A DNA stretch of 64,000 nt from Acidovorax sp. CF316 (GTDB taxonomy: Bacteria > Pseudomonadota > Gammaproteobacteria > Burkholderiales > Burkholderiaceae_C): NCBI RefSeq assembly GCF_000276605.1, contig NZ_AKJX01000013.1, positions 1 to 64,000 of the forward strand, read 5' to 3'. The position numbers were made by a program, and so were the translations under genes. The notes below the pieces were generated by a model. The model ran no database searches and was not told the origin of the DNA. It saw only the letters and a list, made by a program, of their open reading frames with translations. The first letter of the stretch is position 1. Each line of letters opens with the position of its first letter. Of the stretch, positions 48,546 to 53,711 are shown piece by piece.

Positions 48546-49463
48546 TCACGCCAACGGCTGCTGCTGGCGCGGCGCATGCACCGCCATCAGCTCCACGACC
48601 CAGTCGATGAACACCCGCAGCTGCTTGCTCACATAGCGGTTGGGCGGGTAGGCCGCATAGAGCGGCATGGCATCGATGCGCCAGTCCGTGAACAGCGGCA
48701 CCAGCGCGCCGCTGGCCACATGCTGCCGGGCCATGTAATCGGGCAGCCAGAGCGCGCCCAGCCCCGAAAGCCCCGCGGTAAGGTAGGCGTTGCCGTCGTC
48801 GATGGCAAGCATGTAGCGCCCGCCGACCTGGGCCGTCTCGCGGCCCTTGCGCATGGCATAAGGCAGGTCCCCGTCCCACCGGTAGCGCACGATGCGGTGG
48901 CGCGGGTCGCGCAGTTCATCGGGGTGCCGGGGCGTGCCGGCCTGTGCCAGGTAGGCCGGCGCGGCATACACGCCCAGCTGCAGGTCGCCGACCTGGCGCG
49001 CTACCAGGCCCTGGTCGCGGATCTCGCCGCCGCGCACCACGCAGTCGACGTTCTCGCCGATCAGGTCGACCTTGCGGTCGCTGGCGCCCATGTCGAGCTG
49101 GATGTCGGGGTAGCGCGCATGGAACGCGGGCAGCGCCGGCACCAGCAGGATGTTGGCCAGGGGGCTGGGCACGTCCACGCGCAGCAGGCCGCGCGGTGCC
49201 GTGGGGGCACCGGGCAGGTTGCCCTCGATGTCGTCGAGCTCGGCCAGCAGGCGCACCACCCGCTCGTAGTACGCGGAGCCATCGGTGGTGACGTTGACGC
49301 GGCGCGTGGTGCGGTGCAGCAGCTTGAGCTGCAGCCGCGCCTCCAGCTGCTGCACCAGCTGGGTCACCGTGGTGCGGCTCCAGCCCAGGTTGTCGGCCGC
49401 CCGGGTGAAGCTGCCCGACTCGACCACCCGCACAAAGGCCCGCATGCCATCAAACCTGTCCAT
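48546..49463 (-). CDS. LysR-family transcriptional regulator
   Basis: A 305-residue LysR protein of the CrgA/AaeR-like branch (MDRFDGMRAFVRVVESGSFTRAA start, helix-turn-helix LGWSRTTVTQLVQQLE). AAGGAG lies ahead of the ATG. Divergent from a RidA-family gene, its probable target. The 129 bases after its stop (48417-48545) show no gene. Confidence 0.93.
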   Translation of the reverse strand: MDRFDGMRAFVRVVESGSFTRAADNLGWSRTTVTQLVQQLEARLQLKLLHRTTRRVNVTTDGSAYYERVVRLLAELDDIEGNLPGAPTAPRGLLRVDVPSPLANILLVPALPAFHARYPDIQLDMGASDRKVDLIGENVDCVVRGGEIRDQGLVARQVGDLQLGVYAAPAYLAQAGTPRHPDELRDPRHRIVRYRWDGDLPYAMRKGRETAQVGGRYMLAIDDGNAYLTAGLSGLGALWLPDYMARQHVASGALVPLFTDWRIDAMPLYAAYPPNRYVSKQLRVFIDWVVELMAVHAPRQQQPLA

Positions 49464-49578
49464 GCAAGTTCTCCTTGGATTGTCTGCATTTTACAAACAG
49501 TGATGCAGGAGATGGTGGCTTTATCCAAACAATCGCCAGGACTACAGTGGCTCCATCAACCAACCCATGGAGCCCCCA

Positions 49579-49971
49579 ATGAGCCAGCGCAAACCCATTT
49601 TTCCTGCCGATCGCCACGATCTGTATGCCAACCACCGGTATTCGGCAGCCATCCAGTCCGGCGATCTGCTGTTCGTGTCCGGTCAGGTCGGCAGCCGCGG
49701 CGACGGCTCGCCCGAGCCCGATTTCGAGGCCCAGGTGCGCCTGGCCTTCGCCAACCTGCAGGCCACCCTCCAGGCCGGCGGCTGCACCCTGGACGACATC
49801 GTGGACGTGACCACCTTCCACACCGATCCGCAAAACCAGTTCGAGACCATGATGGCCGTGAAGAACGACATCTTTCCGAGCGCCCCTTACCCCAACTGGA
49901 CGGCGGTCGGGGTCAACTGGCTGGCGGGGTTCGACTTCGAGATCAAGGTCATCGCGCGCATCCCGGGTTGA
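49579..49971 (+). CDS. RidA-family (YjgF) protein
   Basis: A 130-residue trimeric RidA-fold protein. RidA hydrolyses reactive enamines and imines from PLP enzymes through an arginine; here the corresponding loop (YPNWTAVGVNWLAG) has no arginine, so it belongs to a Rid subfamily of unclear activity. I chose the ATG at 49579, which has GGAG 6 bases upstream; the ATG at 49567 adds MEPP only. Divergent from a LysR gene. Confidence 0.9.
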   Translation: MSQRKPIFPADRHDLYANHRYSAAIQSGDLLFVSGQVGSRGDGSPEPDFEAQVRLAFANLQATLQAGGCTLDDIVDVTTFHTDPQNQFETMMAVKNDIFPSAPYPNWTAVGVNWLAGFDFEIKVIARIPG

Positions 49972-50054
49972 AGCGGGCGGCCATTGCACAAAGCCGCGGA
50001 CCAGGGCATGCTGGCGCGCCGCTGCATGGCTGCGGCTCCAATCCAAGGGACACC

Positions 50055-50621
50055 ATGACCACCTCGACCGGACGAACGCTGCTTTCCCTGTCTGCCACCA
50101 CCGCTGCCCTGCTGGTGCAGGTGGCGGCCACCACTGCCGCCCATGCGGCAGACCTGCCGCCAGTACCTCCACCGCCACCGCCCGCCCCCACCCGCCCCGC
50201 GAGCCAGCCGGCTGCGCAGGCACCGGCGCCGGCAGCGGACAGGCTGGCCCAGGCACGCTATTTCACCCGGTCGCTGCAGTGGTCCGCGGCGCTGGATGAA
50301 CTCCGGCGTGTCAACGACACGGCCAGCGCCGATTGGCACAACCTGATGGGCTACACCCTGCGCCACGGCAAGGCGCCGGACCTGGCCGCGGCCGGCAGGC
50401 ACTACGACGAGGCGCTGCGCATCGACCCGCGCCACCGCAACACGCTGGAGTATTCGGGCGAGCTGTACCTGGTGAAAGGCCAGCTCGGCAAGGCGCAGGC
50501 GCGACTGGCCACGCTGTCGGGAGAATGTGGCGCCAGCGGTTGCCAGCAGCACGCACAACTGCATGCCGCCATCGAGCGCTACAAGGCGGCGGGCAACCGG
50601 TTCGTGCCGTCGACCTGGTAG
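50055..50621 (+). CDS. Exported TPR protein, copy 1
   Basis: A 188-residue periplasmic protein: signal peptide (ending AAHAAD), a proline/alanine-rich linker (PPVPPPPPPAPTRP), then three TPR-like helix pairs from about residue 62 (RLAQARYFTRSLQWSAALDEL, abridged) and a final C-x4-C pair in GECGASGCQQ. A near-identical protein lies at 52217 on the far side of the sigma/anti-sigma pair. It is 129 bases upstream of the sigma gene. Confidence 0.85.
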   Translation: MTTSTGRTLLSLSATTAALLVQVAATTAAHAADLPPVPPPPPPAPTRPASQPAAQAPAPAADRLAQARYFTRSLQWSAALDELRRVNDTASADWHNLMGYTLRHGKAPDLAAAGRHYDEALRIDPRHRNTLEYSGELYLVKGQLGKAQARLATLSGECGASGCQQHAQLHAAIERYKAAGNRFVPSTW

Positions 50622-50750
50622 GCCGGCAAGGGCCGACCTGGCGGTTCAGAGCAGGCCCTCCGGGCCACCAGGGCGAACCCTTAGCGCCGCGCTGGTATTC
50701 TGCGCGGGCGGCCCCCTCCGCATTCGGGACACCCACCGCTCGCACCACCC

Positions 50751-51338
50751 ATGGCCCCAGACACCCACCTGCCCGCCCTGATGGCGCGCGTCGCGCTACA
50801 GGACCGCGCCGCGTTCAAATCCCTGTACCAGGCCACCTGCGGGAGTCTGTTTGCGGTGGCGCTGCGTATATTGAGGAATGAGAACTGGGCAGACGACGTG
50901 CTGCAAGAAGCCTACGTGAACATCTGGCACAACGCGGCCGCGTACAAGCCAGGTGCGGGCGCGCCGATGACCTGGATGATCAACATCGTGCGCAACAAGG
51001 CCATCGACGCGCTGCGCGCGCGCAAGGCCGAGCTGGCGCTGACCACCGACCTGGGCGACGAGGCCCAGGACGCCCGGGACGGCCTGGCGGCCGATGCCGC
51101 GCACGGGCCCCAGCAGCTGCTGGACGACAGCCTGGTGAAGGCGAAGATCGACGGCTGCATGGGTGCGCTGCCGGCCGCGCAGCGCCAGGCGCTGGCGCTG
51201 GCCTACTACCGGGGCATGGTGCACACCGAGATTGCCCAGGCGCTCAATGCCCCGCTGGGCACGGCCAAGGGCTGGGTGCGGCGCGGGCTGGAGCAGCTCA
51301 GGGCCTGCCTCGAAGCCGCGGGGGTGACGCAGCCATGA
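50751..51338 (+). CDS. ECF-type RNA polymerase sigma factor
   Basis: A 195-residue extracytoplasmic-function sigma factor. Region 2 holds WADDVLQEAYVNIW and MTWMINIVRNKAIDALR; region 4 is a helix-turn-helix with YYRGMVHTEIAQAL and GTAKGWVRRGLEQLR. The downstream anti-sigma gene overlaps by ATGA, so the two are made together. Probably drives its own operon and the flanking TPR genes. Confidence 0.93.
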   Translation: MAPDTHLPALMARVALQDRAAFKSLYQATCGSLFAVALRILRNENWADDVLQEAYVNIWHNAAAYKPGAGAPMTWMINIVRNKAIDALRARKAELALTTDLGDEAQDARDGLAADAAHGPQQLLDDSLVKAKIDGCMGALPAAQRQALALAYYRGMVHTEIAQALNAPLGTAKGWVRRGLEQLRACLEAAGVTQP

Positions 51339-52090
51339 ACTACCTGTTGCCCGAACGCCTGGACCGGCTGGCCCGCGAGTACGCGCTGGGCACGCTGGCC
51401 GGCCGCGCGCGGCGCCGCTTCGAGCGCGTGCTGCAATCATCGCCCGCCGCAGTGCAGGCCGTCGATGCCTGGCGCCAGCGCCTGGCGGTGCTGGACCTGT
51501 CCACTGTGCCCCAGCAGCCGCCCGAGGCGACCTGGCAGAAGATCGAGCAGCGCCTGTTCGGCACGCCCCAGCCAGCACATTCGTCGGCAGCAGCATCGGC
51601 CTGGCAGCGTGCGGTGCAGGCCCTGCTGGGCGTGCTGTCGGGGCGCACCATCGCGGGCGCGCTGGCCGGCCTGCTGCTGTGCGCGGTGCTGGTGCGCGTG
51701 GCACCGGGCATGCTGGGTCTGGAGCCCCGGGCCGATGCGCTGCCCGCCAGCTATGTGGGCCTGCTGCTCGATGGCGGCGGCAAGCCCACGCTGGTGGCCA
51801 GCTCGCGCCGCCAGGGGCGCCAGCTCACGGTGAAGCTGCTGCAGCCGCTGGCCGTGCCCGCCGGGCAGGTGGCCCAGCTGTGGGCCCTGCCCAAGGACGG
51901 CGGTGCCCCCCTCGCGGTCGGCGTGGTGCCGGCCAGTGGCTCGGCCCGCATCGCTCTGCCCGACACGTCGGAAAAGCTGTTCTTCACGGTCTCGCAGCTG
52001 GCCGTGAGCTTCGAGCCCGCGCCGGTGCAGGCCGGGGGGGCGCCATCGGGGCCGTTCGTGCTCACGGGGCATTGCGTCAAGGTCTGGTGA
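51335..52090 (+). CDS. Anti-sigma factor, RskA/ChrR-like membrane type
   Basis: A 251-residue protein: cytoplasmic N-terminus with the RskA-type helix LAREYALGTLAGRARRRFE, a single hydrophobic helix near residues 93-120 (TIAGALAGLLLCAVLVRVAPG) and a periplasmic RskA-like domain (VAQLWALPKDGGAPLAVGVVP). No zinc-binding H-x3-C-x2-C motif, so it is of the zinc-free kind. Coupled to the sigma factor. Confidence 0.9.
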   Translation: MNYLLPERLDRLAREYALGTLAGRARRRFERVLQSSPAAVQAVDAWRQRLAVLDLSTVPQQPPEATWQKIEQRLFGTPQPAHSSAAASAWQRAVQALLGVLSGRTIAGALAGLLLCAVLVRVAPGMLGLEPRADALPASYVGLLLDGGGKPTLVASSRRQGRQLTVKLLQPLAVPAGQVAQLWALPKDGGAPLAVGVVPASGSARIALPDTSEKLFFTVSQLAVSFEPAPVQAGGAPSGPFVLTGHCVKVW

Positions 52091-52216
52091 GGCAGGCAGC
52101 GAACCGCAAAAAGATCTGCCTCCCCGGGATCCGTCTGCCCTCTTGCGTCGTAAGTAGCTTCGGTGCCTTTTGTTTCACCGCTTTCACCGACCGCTACTTG
52201 AAGAAGGAAGAACGCC

Positions 52217-52756
52217 ATGACCACATCCCCGAGCGCACGGCTGTTGCCTACCCTGTCTGCCACGCTGTTGGCGCTGCTGCTGACCCAGGCGGCGCATGCC
52301 GCCGACCACCCGCCGGTGTTCCCCGCACGCTCCGCAACGCCTGCCGCGGCCCCGGCACCCGCCCCGGCGGCAGACAAGCTGGCCCAGGCACGTTACCTGA
52401 CCCGGTCGCTGCAGTGGCCGGCGGCGCTCGACGAGCTCCGGCGCATCAACGACACGGGCAGCGCCGACTGGAACAACCTGATGGGCTACACGCTGCGCAA
52501 CAGCAAGGCGCCGGACCTGGCCGCCGCCGAACGGCACTACGACGAGGCACTGCGCATCGACCCGCGCCACCGCAATGCACTGGAGTATTCGGGCGAGCTG
52601 TATTTGATGAAGGGCGAGCTCGACAAGGCGCAGGCGCGCCTGGCCACGCTGGGCAGCGAGTGCGGCGCCAGCGGCTGCCAGCAGCAGGCCCAGCTGCAGG
52701 CCGCGATCGAGCGCTACAGGGCGGCAGGCAACAAGTACGTGCCGTCGAACTGGTAG
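52217..52756 (+). CDS. Exported TPR protein, copy 2
   Basis: A 179-residue paralogue of the protein at 50055, nearly identical over the TPR part (LEYSGELYLMKGELDKAQARL; ECGASGCQQ). The signal peptide (ending AAHAAD) and linker differ more. It is 126 bases after the anti-sigma gene. Two copies around one sigma operon suggest a stress or envelope-sensing unit. Confidence 0.85.
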   Translation: MTTSPSARLLPTLSATLLALLLTQAAHAADHPPVFPARSATPAAAPAPAPAADKLAQARYLTRSLQWPAALDELRRINDTGSADWNNLMGYTLRNSKAPDLAAAERHYDEALRIDPRHRNALEYSGELYLMKGELDKAQARLATLGSECGASGCQQQAQLQAAIERYRAAGNKYVPSNW

Positions 52757-52766
52757 GCCGCCTGCT

Positions 52767-53711
52767 TCAACACCGCCCTTCTGGTGTGCCCTCCAGCTCA
52801 CCGAGCTTGTCCACCACCAGCGCGATGAAGGCCGACACCGCCAGCGGCAGGTGCCGGCGGCTCGGGTACAGCACGGTCAGGCCCTGGCCCTTGCGCTGGT
52901 ACTGGGGCAGCACGGGCACGAGCAGGCCGGCCTGCACGTCGAGCCGGGACATGCCCGCAGGCAGCAGCGCAATGCCCAGGCCGGCCACGGCGGCGCGGCG
53001 CAGGGCCTGGGCGGTGTTGGCGCCAAAGCGGCCGGTGGCCTGCGGCACCTCGTGCACGCTGCCATCGGGCCCCACCAGGCGCCACGTGCCGCTGCTGCCG
53101 GCATGGCTGGCCACGACGGCATCGTGCCCGGCCAGGTCGGCCAGCGTGGCGGGAACACCGCGCGCGGCCAGGTAGGCGGGGCTGGCCACCAGGCCGTCGC
53201 CCCGGGCGCCGAACAGCTGGCGGCCCACGTAGCCCGAGTCGCCCACCTCGCCGCCGCGAAAGGCCACGTCGATGCGCTCGGCGATCAGGTCGGATCGGGC
53301 ATCGCTGAGCACGAAATCGAGCCGCACACGCGGGTGCGCGGCCAGGAAGCCGGCGATCCATTCCATGGGAAAGAAGTCGAAGAAATCCGCCGGCACCGCC
53401 ACGCGCACACAGCCGGTGGGCTCGTCGCTGCCCAGGCGCAGCTCCTGCCCCGCCTCCTGCAGGCCATCCACCGCGCCCGCGCAGCGCTCGTGGAAGGCCT
53501 CGCCCGCGCTGGTGAGGGTGAGCTTGCGGGTGGAGCGCTGCAGCAACCGGGTGCCCAGCTGCGCCTCGAGCTGCTGCACGCGCCGGCTCACGGTGTTGGG
53601 CGGCTGGCCCAGGCGGCGCGCAGCCTCGGCAAAGCTGCCGCTGCGCACCACCTGCACGAACAGGGCGATGTCGTTGAGGTCGAGCGCGGCGGTGGTGGCA
53701 TCGGTGGCCAT
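52767..53711 (-). CDS. LysR-family transcriptional regulator
   Basis: A 314-residue LysR protein with helix-turn-helix RRLGQPPNTVSRRVQQLEAQLG and a binding domain from about residue 95. Divergent from an FMN reductase/pirin operon, its probable target. It converges with the TPR gene at a 10-base gap. Confidence 0.93.
   Translation of the reverse strand: MATDATTAALDLNDIALFVQVVRSGSFAEAARRLGQPPNTVSRRVQQLEAQLGTRLLQRSTRKLTLTSAGEAFHERCAGAVDGLQEAGQELRLGSDEPTGCVRVAVPADFFDFFPMEWIAGFLAAHPRVRLDFVLSDARSDLIAERIDVAFRGGEVGDSGYVGRQLFGARGDGLVASPAYLAARGVPATLADLAGHDAVVASHAGSSGTWRLVGPDGSVHEVPQATGRFGANTAQALRRAAVAGLGIALLPAGMSRLDVQAGLLVPVLPQYQRKGQGLTVLYPSRRHLPLAVSAFIALVVDKLGELEGTPEGRC

Follow-up and report, generated by a model that had tools for sequence, protein, structure and literature searches.

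A predicted SigK/RskA-class sigma switch with one exported TPR protein as its local output in Acidovorax sp. CF316

An ECF sigma factor and the membrane anti-sigma encoded beside it in Acidovorax sp. CF316 very probably form a switch of the SigK/RskA class whose local output, as judged from sequence comparison, is one exported TPR protein, TPR2. The locus (Table 1) lies in what we call the window, the whole stretch of 64,000 nucleotides that was analysed (G000:C13:1-64000 in our comparisons, where the 7.09 Mb window genome is labelled G000). In the proposed mechanism the membrane anti-sigma would hold the sigma factor at the membrane, and an envelope signal would free it, perhaps by way of anti-sigma proteolysis and with a thiol component acting through C136 and C186 of the sigma factor. 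Holoenzyme would then presumably read the promoter at 52126-52154, so that TPR2 would be raised and exported. A second TPR gene, TPR1, lies on the other side of the operon; it is an older paralogue that adjoins the unit and is probably expressed independently of the window sigma factor.

Table 1. Features of the sigma/anti-sigma/TPR locus and its upstream neighbour in the window.
Feature	Coordinates	Strand	Basis and remarks
RidA-family gene	49567..49971	+	PF01042, 104.1 bits (Pfam); neighbour, ends 83 bases before TPR1
TPR1	50055..50621	+	TPR2 paralogue without promoter motif (-3.7 bits)
ECF sigma factor, putative SigK/RskA class, cysteine pair C136/C186	50751..51338	+	Pfam r2/r4 domains; 4nqw_A
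Anti-sigma, RskA_C, zinc-free, GxCxKxW C-terminal motif (C247)	51335..52090	+	PF10099; family alignment
Predicted ECF promoter of TPR2	52126..52154	+	-35-like GGGATCCG 52126-52133, 15-base spacer, -10-like CGTAAG 52149-52154
TPR2, small exported TPR protein, C-x4-C	52217..52756	+	TPR_19; conserved three-gene unit

The four genes recognized in the earlier note have intact reading frames, and the sigma stop and anti-sigma start overlap as ATGA. A LysR-type gene on the opposite strand comes after TPR2, and the RidA-family gene is probably unrelated to the sigma/TPR unit. Acidovorax soli (L003) and Acidovorax sp. A1169 (L004) are close relatives among the named genomes; identity of the A. soli locus to the window is 93% for the sigma factor, 88% for the anti-sigma and 94% for the TPR protein.

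Several lines of evidence place the sigma factor near SigK. Both Sigma70_r2 and Sigma70_r4_2 exceed their Pfam cut-offs, and the nearest solved chain is SigK (4nqw_A, 2.2e-35; 125 bits versus 76 for the runner-up). C136 and C186 align with both cysteines of 4nqw, which are the SigK pair (C133/C183 in M. tuberculosis), and the pair is spaced by 50 residues in 40 of 40 sigma rows. Among NCBIfam models another ECF model comes first (148.9 bits, below its cut-off of 265) and the SigK model second (141.9 bits, below its cut-off of 226). On these alignments we regard the protein as a putative SigK/RskA-class ECF factor, with the group numbers ECF18 and ECF19 borrowed from PMC7509140. That source assigns M. 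tuberculosis SigK to ECF18 and Y. enterocolitica SigK to ECF19, and it reports that the SigK cysteines influence the SigK-RskA interaction (PMC7509140).

The adjacency of an RskA_C membrane anti-sigma to the sigma gene is confirmed in the window (PF10099, 49.9 bits against a cut-off of 29.4). The protein has a single hydrophobic segment at about residues 105-123 by hydropathy and, as the earlier note had proposed, is zinc-free, the HxxxCxxC zinc motif being absent. A cysteine at position -5 occurs in all 28 of the 28 anti-sigmas that score at least 250 bits, within a C-terminal end of the form GxCxKxW, and the corresponding C247 of the window protein is expected in the periplasm. The C-terminal cysteine is absent from the six generic anti-sigmas checked (L159-L161, L163-L165). 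A cysteine in a comparable setting, GLCGKLW, is seen in the anti-sigmas of G100, G252 and G341, three genomes without a TPR match, which weakens the idea that the residue marks a TPR partnership. In what follows, a strong anti-sigma of this subfamily is a profile match of at least 198 bits, a border chosen after the scores had been seen.

The conserved unit is sigma, anti-sigma and TPR in that order, with a promoter preceding the TPR gene. For its analysis 123 TPR genes were gathered from genus, family and order searches; they are part of all matches, and 24 of the 66 matching genomes of the order search are represented among them. A TPR gene was called linked when no more than 2.5 kb lay between it and an anti-sigma of this kind, which gave 27 linked genes with TPR1 set aside. 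The promoter pattern was drawn by inspecting intergenic stretches, and 22 of the 24 distinct anti-sigma/TPR stretches were searched with it. All 22 contain one bipartite site that varies little: TGCGTCCG or TGCATCCG, followed after 15-16 bases by CGTAAG or CGTTTG. The two stretches left out are L084, which has none (1.4 bits), and L054 (G188:C12:912000-925000), where the site is nearer the TPR gene. In this G188 locus an opposite-strand gene lies between anti-sigma and TPR, and the TPR gene keeps its site (21.4 bits) despite the intervening gene; the sigma gene there also has one (20.2 bits).

A matrix built from 20 sites and applied with a threshold of 15 bits gives the window site (GGGATCCG-N15-CGTAAG, ending 62-63 bases upstream of TPR2) a score of 19.8 bits, or 19.0 bits with the window's own site out of the matrix. 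Of the 27 linked TPR genes, 25 reach the threshold; leave-one-genome-out scoring lowers this count to 24, and in genomes that gave the matrix no site it is 5 of 7 linked genes. The weak linked cases are G081 (3.2 bits), G110 (1.4 bits) and, when left out of the matrix, G030 (13.1 bits). Where the genome has no linked TPR gene and its strong anti-sigma lies elsewhere, 4 of 7 unlinked TPR genes have the site, compared with 3 of 79 TPR genes where the genome has no strong anti-sigma (Fisher p of 3e-5 for 5/7 and 5e-4 for 4/7 against 3/79, with kinship between genomes uncorrected; three rows with fewer than 200 upstream bases were dropped from the promoter counts). Second TPR genes in genomes that also have a linked one reach the threshold in 0 of 6 cases. 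Controls reached it in 2 of 1620 dinucleotide shuffles and in 2 of 422 upstream regions of other genes. We call the TPR2 site SigK-type because of its association with the sigma/anti-sigma pair, an attribution that is independent of the published SigK consensus.

Contrary to the suggestion of a motif shared by the regions before 50055, 50751 and 52217, which score -3.7, 1.5 and 19.8 bits, the site occurs only before 52217; the RidA upstream region is also without it (-6.3 bits). The matrix found no ECF-type site before the window sigma gene, and with only 1.5 bits upstream, autoregulation of this sigma factor was rejected. Sites of at least 15 bits stand upstream of the sigma gene in 4 of 40 rows (L184, L054, L189 and L172), and in G163 a further site of at least 15 bits precedes a sigma gene on a separate contig (L115).

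The co-occurrence of the protein families points in the same direction as the promoter. In a family sample of 299 genomes, an anti-sigma of at least 198 bits is found in 28, and 26 of these 28 have a TPR gene versus 89 of 299 overall; with the looser border of 164 bits the count is 29 of 34. Of the two roles, sensor or main target, that the earlier note had entertained for the TPR proteins, only that of target has support, and for TPR2 alone, because the conserved ECF-type promoter tracks this anti-sigma subfamily even where the genes are far apart in some genomes. TPR2 is thus the predicted target of the window sigma factor. The sensor role found no positive evidence, since many TPR genes of the family belong to genomes in which a strong anti-sigma is absent, and conservation does not extend to the upstream copy. 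The most conserved output of the window pair looks like a single exported TPR protein.

The symmetrical layout, with a TPR gene on either side of the operon, is peculiar to the window among the sigma-linked loci compared. TPR matches were obtained in 12 of the 47 genomes searched within the genus, one per genome except for the window genome with its two. The proposal that the four-gene order is conserved fails, as an upstream TPR copy is present in 0 of 26 other sigma-linked TPR loci: the 23 with at least 4.2 kb before the TPR gene have one TPR frame each, and the loci of G011, G163 and G314 are shorter upstream, but each of these whole genomes has a single TPR match. A further TPR gene lies elsewhere in 6 of the 26 linked genomes (G081, G110, G141, G241, G244 and G336). 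The linkage to this sigma factor in relatives on which the earlier interpretation turned therefore holds for TPR2 and not for TPR1. The description of the twins as nearly identical is too strong, as identity is 83% over 127 residues and 79% overall, and leader and linker differ. Side-by-side TPR genes of the family also occur as a pair at L255 (G585) and at G490:C1:471667-472625; the neighbourhood of the G585 pair yielded no anti-sigma of this kind.

The origin of TPR1 is indicated by its relatives. In a tree of 122 rows TPR1 groups with the single, sigma-less TPR of G020 (support 100/92, with the bootstrap not fully settled), and this group sits next to TPR2, G014 and G044; the linked TPR genes fall into two deep clades of 17 and 10 rows. 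DNA windows over leader and linker give TPR1 78-84% identity to G020 and 53-71% to TPR2, with the core nearly equal. A recent tandem duplication in the window strain was rejected on the grouping of TPR1 with the G020 gene, and is also contradicted by the leader and linker that TPR1 has in common with G020. TPR1 is possibly transcribed together with the upstream RidA gene. By consensus, no sigma-70-like or terminator-like sites were found in 49400-52900.

Both TPR proteins carry the C-x4-C pair, formed in TPR2 by C149 and C154, and a signal-peptide-like start, the latter judged by eye. TPR_19 (Pfam cut-off 25) is passed by TPR2 at 27.4 bits and failed by TPR1 at 18.7. Values of dN/dS are 0.24 for TPR1 against its nearest relative, G020, and 0.11 for TPR2 against A. 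soli; both genes look to be under selection, which for TPR1 appears purifying. Of the 123 family members examined, 122 have a C-x(2-6)-C pair close to the C terminus, with spacings of 2, 3 and 4, and the pair is also kept in genomes without a strong anti-sigma. The most probable role of TPR2 in the periplasm is that of a binding scaffold, its cysteine pair being structural or redox-active. Pfam matched TPR models in TPR1 and TPR2 and gave no fasciclin-type match; MPT83, to which we return below, is a fasciclin-domain protein. In the literature searched, which covered few subscription papers, no description of this exported TPR family was found. The family is mainly of this order: it occurs in 66 of 330 genomes of an order sample and in 8 of 303 of a class sample, the window genome being in both, and the unit offers a regulatory handle on it.

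The TPR proteins could act upstream of the sigma factor rather than downstream, as sensors or co-regulators that bind the RskA_C domain in the periplasm and set anti-sigma stability, with TPR2 maybe both output and feedback ligand. The invariant anti-sigma cysteine (28/28) and the TPR cysteine pair (122/123) would share a compartment and weakly keep this idea alive, and the co-occurrence of the two families (26/28) is in its favor. It is nevertheless quite unlikely, as TPR genes of the family are frequent where the genome has no strong anti-sigma (79 rows), the GLCGKLW-like cysteine is found in the anti-sigmas of TPR-less G100, G252 and G341, and the TPR1 gene beside the operon is unconserved. 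A more specific form, in which the cysteine pair of TPR2 exchanges disulfides with C247 or binds near it, TPR level or redox state sets the time for which sigma is free, and the sigma-independent TPR1 sets the basal level, seems to us very unlikely. At the other extreme, the TPR genes may be unrelated neighbours of the sigma/anti-sigma operon. Many relatives do have a TPR gene without an adjoining pair, and in G020 the TPR gene is at the syntenic place without the sigma gene, but the conserved promoter, the co-occurrence and the presence of sites where the genes are apart make simple adjacency highly improbable.

A different question is which sigma factor reads the TPR2 site. The window genome has a paralogous generic SigK/RskA pair on contig C104 (L159, 44500-50714), with similar sites before its sigma gene (weaker, 13.7 bits), before a divergent cytochrome c gene and before an operon encoding DUF3034 and exported globin-cupredoxin-like proteins (TGAATCCG-N15-CGTAAG); arrangements like it occur in other genomes of the genus. 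TPR2 might be read mainly by this C104 pair, or by both sigma factors, so that the local pair would not be the sole regulator. These sites of the same class argue for such a reading, as do G028, G343 and G363, which have the TPR site (20.7 bits in G028) though their only RskA is generic; given these three genomes, the promoter may be open to related sigma factors as well. Against it, G020 keeps a C104-type pair, yet its single TPR gene is without a site, and the TPR site associates with the local anti-sigma subfamily. We consider control from C104, whether primary or shared, unlikely and favor the local pair as the regulator of TPR2. As a separate observation, the loci of G028 (L068), G043 (L067) and G010 (L086) are syntenic, the sigma/anti-sigma pair is missing in G028 and G043, and the promoter scores 20.7 bits in G028 versus 3.8 in G043; these states are possible steps in loss of the unit.

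The reverse assignment, in which the window sigma factor controls the C104 DUF3034 operon, is not supported. G036 and G038 have the same kind of site at this operon, and their sole anti-sigma profile match is generic; the operon is therefore better assigned to its own pair. A strict pattern has just two common places in G000, G014 and G044, TPR2 and the DUF3034-globin-cupredoxin-like operon. Genome-wide searches differ greatly in specificity. GCGTCCG-N15/16-CGTARG gave 37 matches in 17 genomes versus 75 in the reversed control, and its usable sites are therefore limited to TPR and sigma genes; RTCCG-N15/16-CGTAAG gave 5, 3, 3 and 1 matches in G000, G014, G044 and G020 versus 21, 20, 18 and 22 in the control. 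The variant TGCATCC-N16/17-CGTWTR gave 33 matches in 22 genomes versus 3 in the control. Eleven of the 33 precede TPR genes, 2 precede DUF3455 genes (Pfam on one), 1 each precedes exported globin, cupredoxin-like and DUF4399 genes, and 4 precede other genes; 6 are intragenic, 5 have no called gene within 300 bases and 2 fall outside the inspected set.

Further genes carry sites of this class. YceI-like genes stand directly 3' of a GCGTCCG-N15/16-CGTAGG site in G188 (L108), G271 (L109) and G310 (L107), and in G188 and G271, which belong to the same genus, the two boxes agree and the spacer differs. A DUF3455 gene follows a site in G141. We treat these YceI-like and DUF3455 genes as candidate regulon leads, with Pfam assignment covering the G188, G310 and G141 proteins. 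At L181 (G244:C6:53500-64500) about 8 kb bring together DUF3034-globin-cupredoxin genes, the sigma/anti-sigma pair, and a DUF3455-like and a TPR gene that each have a site.

PMC7509140 states that the trigger of the SigK/RskA cascade is unknown, and the sharp TPR2 promoter could serve as a reporter in the search for it. The earlier note could name no published system laid out in this way. The literature searched (few subscription papers being covered) indeed gave no TPR target for a pair of this class, but the general layout is known as the mpt83-sigK-rskA cassette of mycobacteria and Yersinia enterocolitica (PMC7509140). Other pairs show partial likeness. P. syringae ecf18 (Psyr_0362) and P. 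putida RpoT resemble the window in having an ECF18 sigma factor in a predicted operon with an anti-sigma, but differ in neighbours and targets (the TtgGHI efflux pump in P. putida), and neither "tetratricopeptide" nor "TPR" occurs in the main text of that paper (PMC3597554). The C104-type generic pair has in common with the window a sigma factor with an RskA_C anti-sigma, the promoter class and an exported target operon; it differs in its targets, in the weaker site upstream of its sigma gene and in an anti-sigma that lacks the C-terminal cysteine.

The closest known counterpart is the cassette itself. As reported there, an RskA_C anti-sigma adjoins a SigK-like sigma factor, the sigma factor has the cysteine pair, and a secreted target beside the pair is preceded by a SigK site, as TPR2 is by its predicted site; the M. 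tuberculosis target is likewise duplicated (MPT83/MPT70), and its RskA undergoes regulated proteolysis with Rip1 (PMC7509140). The target of the cassette is MPT83, whereas in the window it is a small TPR protein with a cysteine pair, and it comes after the pair in the window, whereas the cassette is written with mpt83 first (PMC7509140). The window also differs in that no site was found before the sigma gene and in an anti-sigma that ends in GxCxKxW. The locus would thus operate in the manner of mpt83-sigK-rskA, but with a TPR protein in place of MPT83 it is a variant that its target keeps outside the cassette proper. In the relatives, sigma/anti-sigma pairs of the class adjoin differing exported targets, namely TPR, DUF3034-globin-cupredoxin and DUF3455 proteins, and because the targets vary in this way and include mpt83 in the reported cassette (PMC7509140), the comparison suggests a general rule of one promoter class with exchangeable exported targets.
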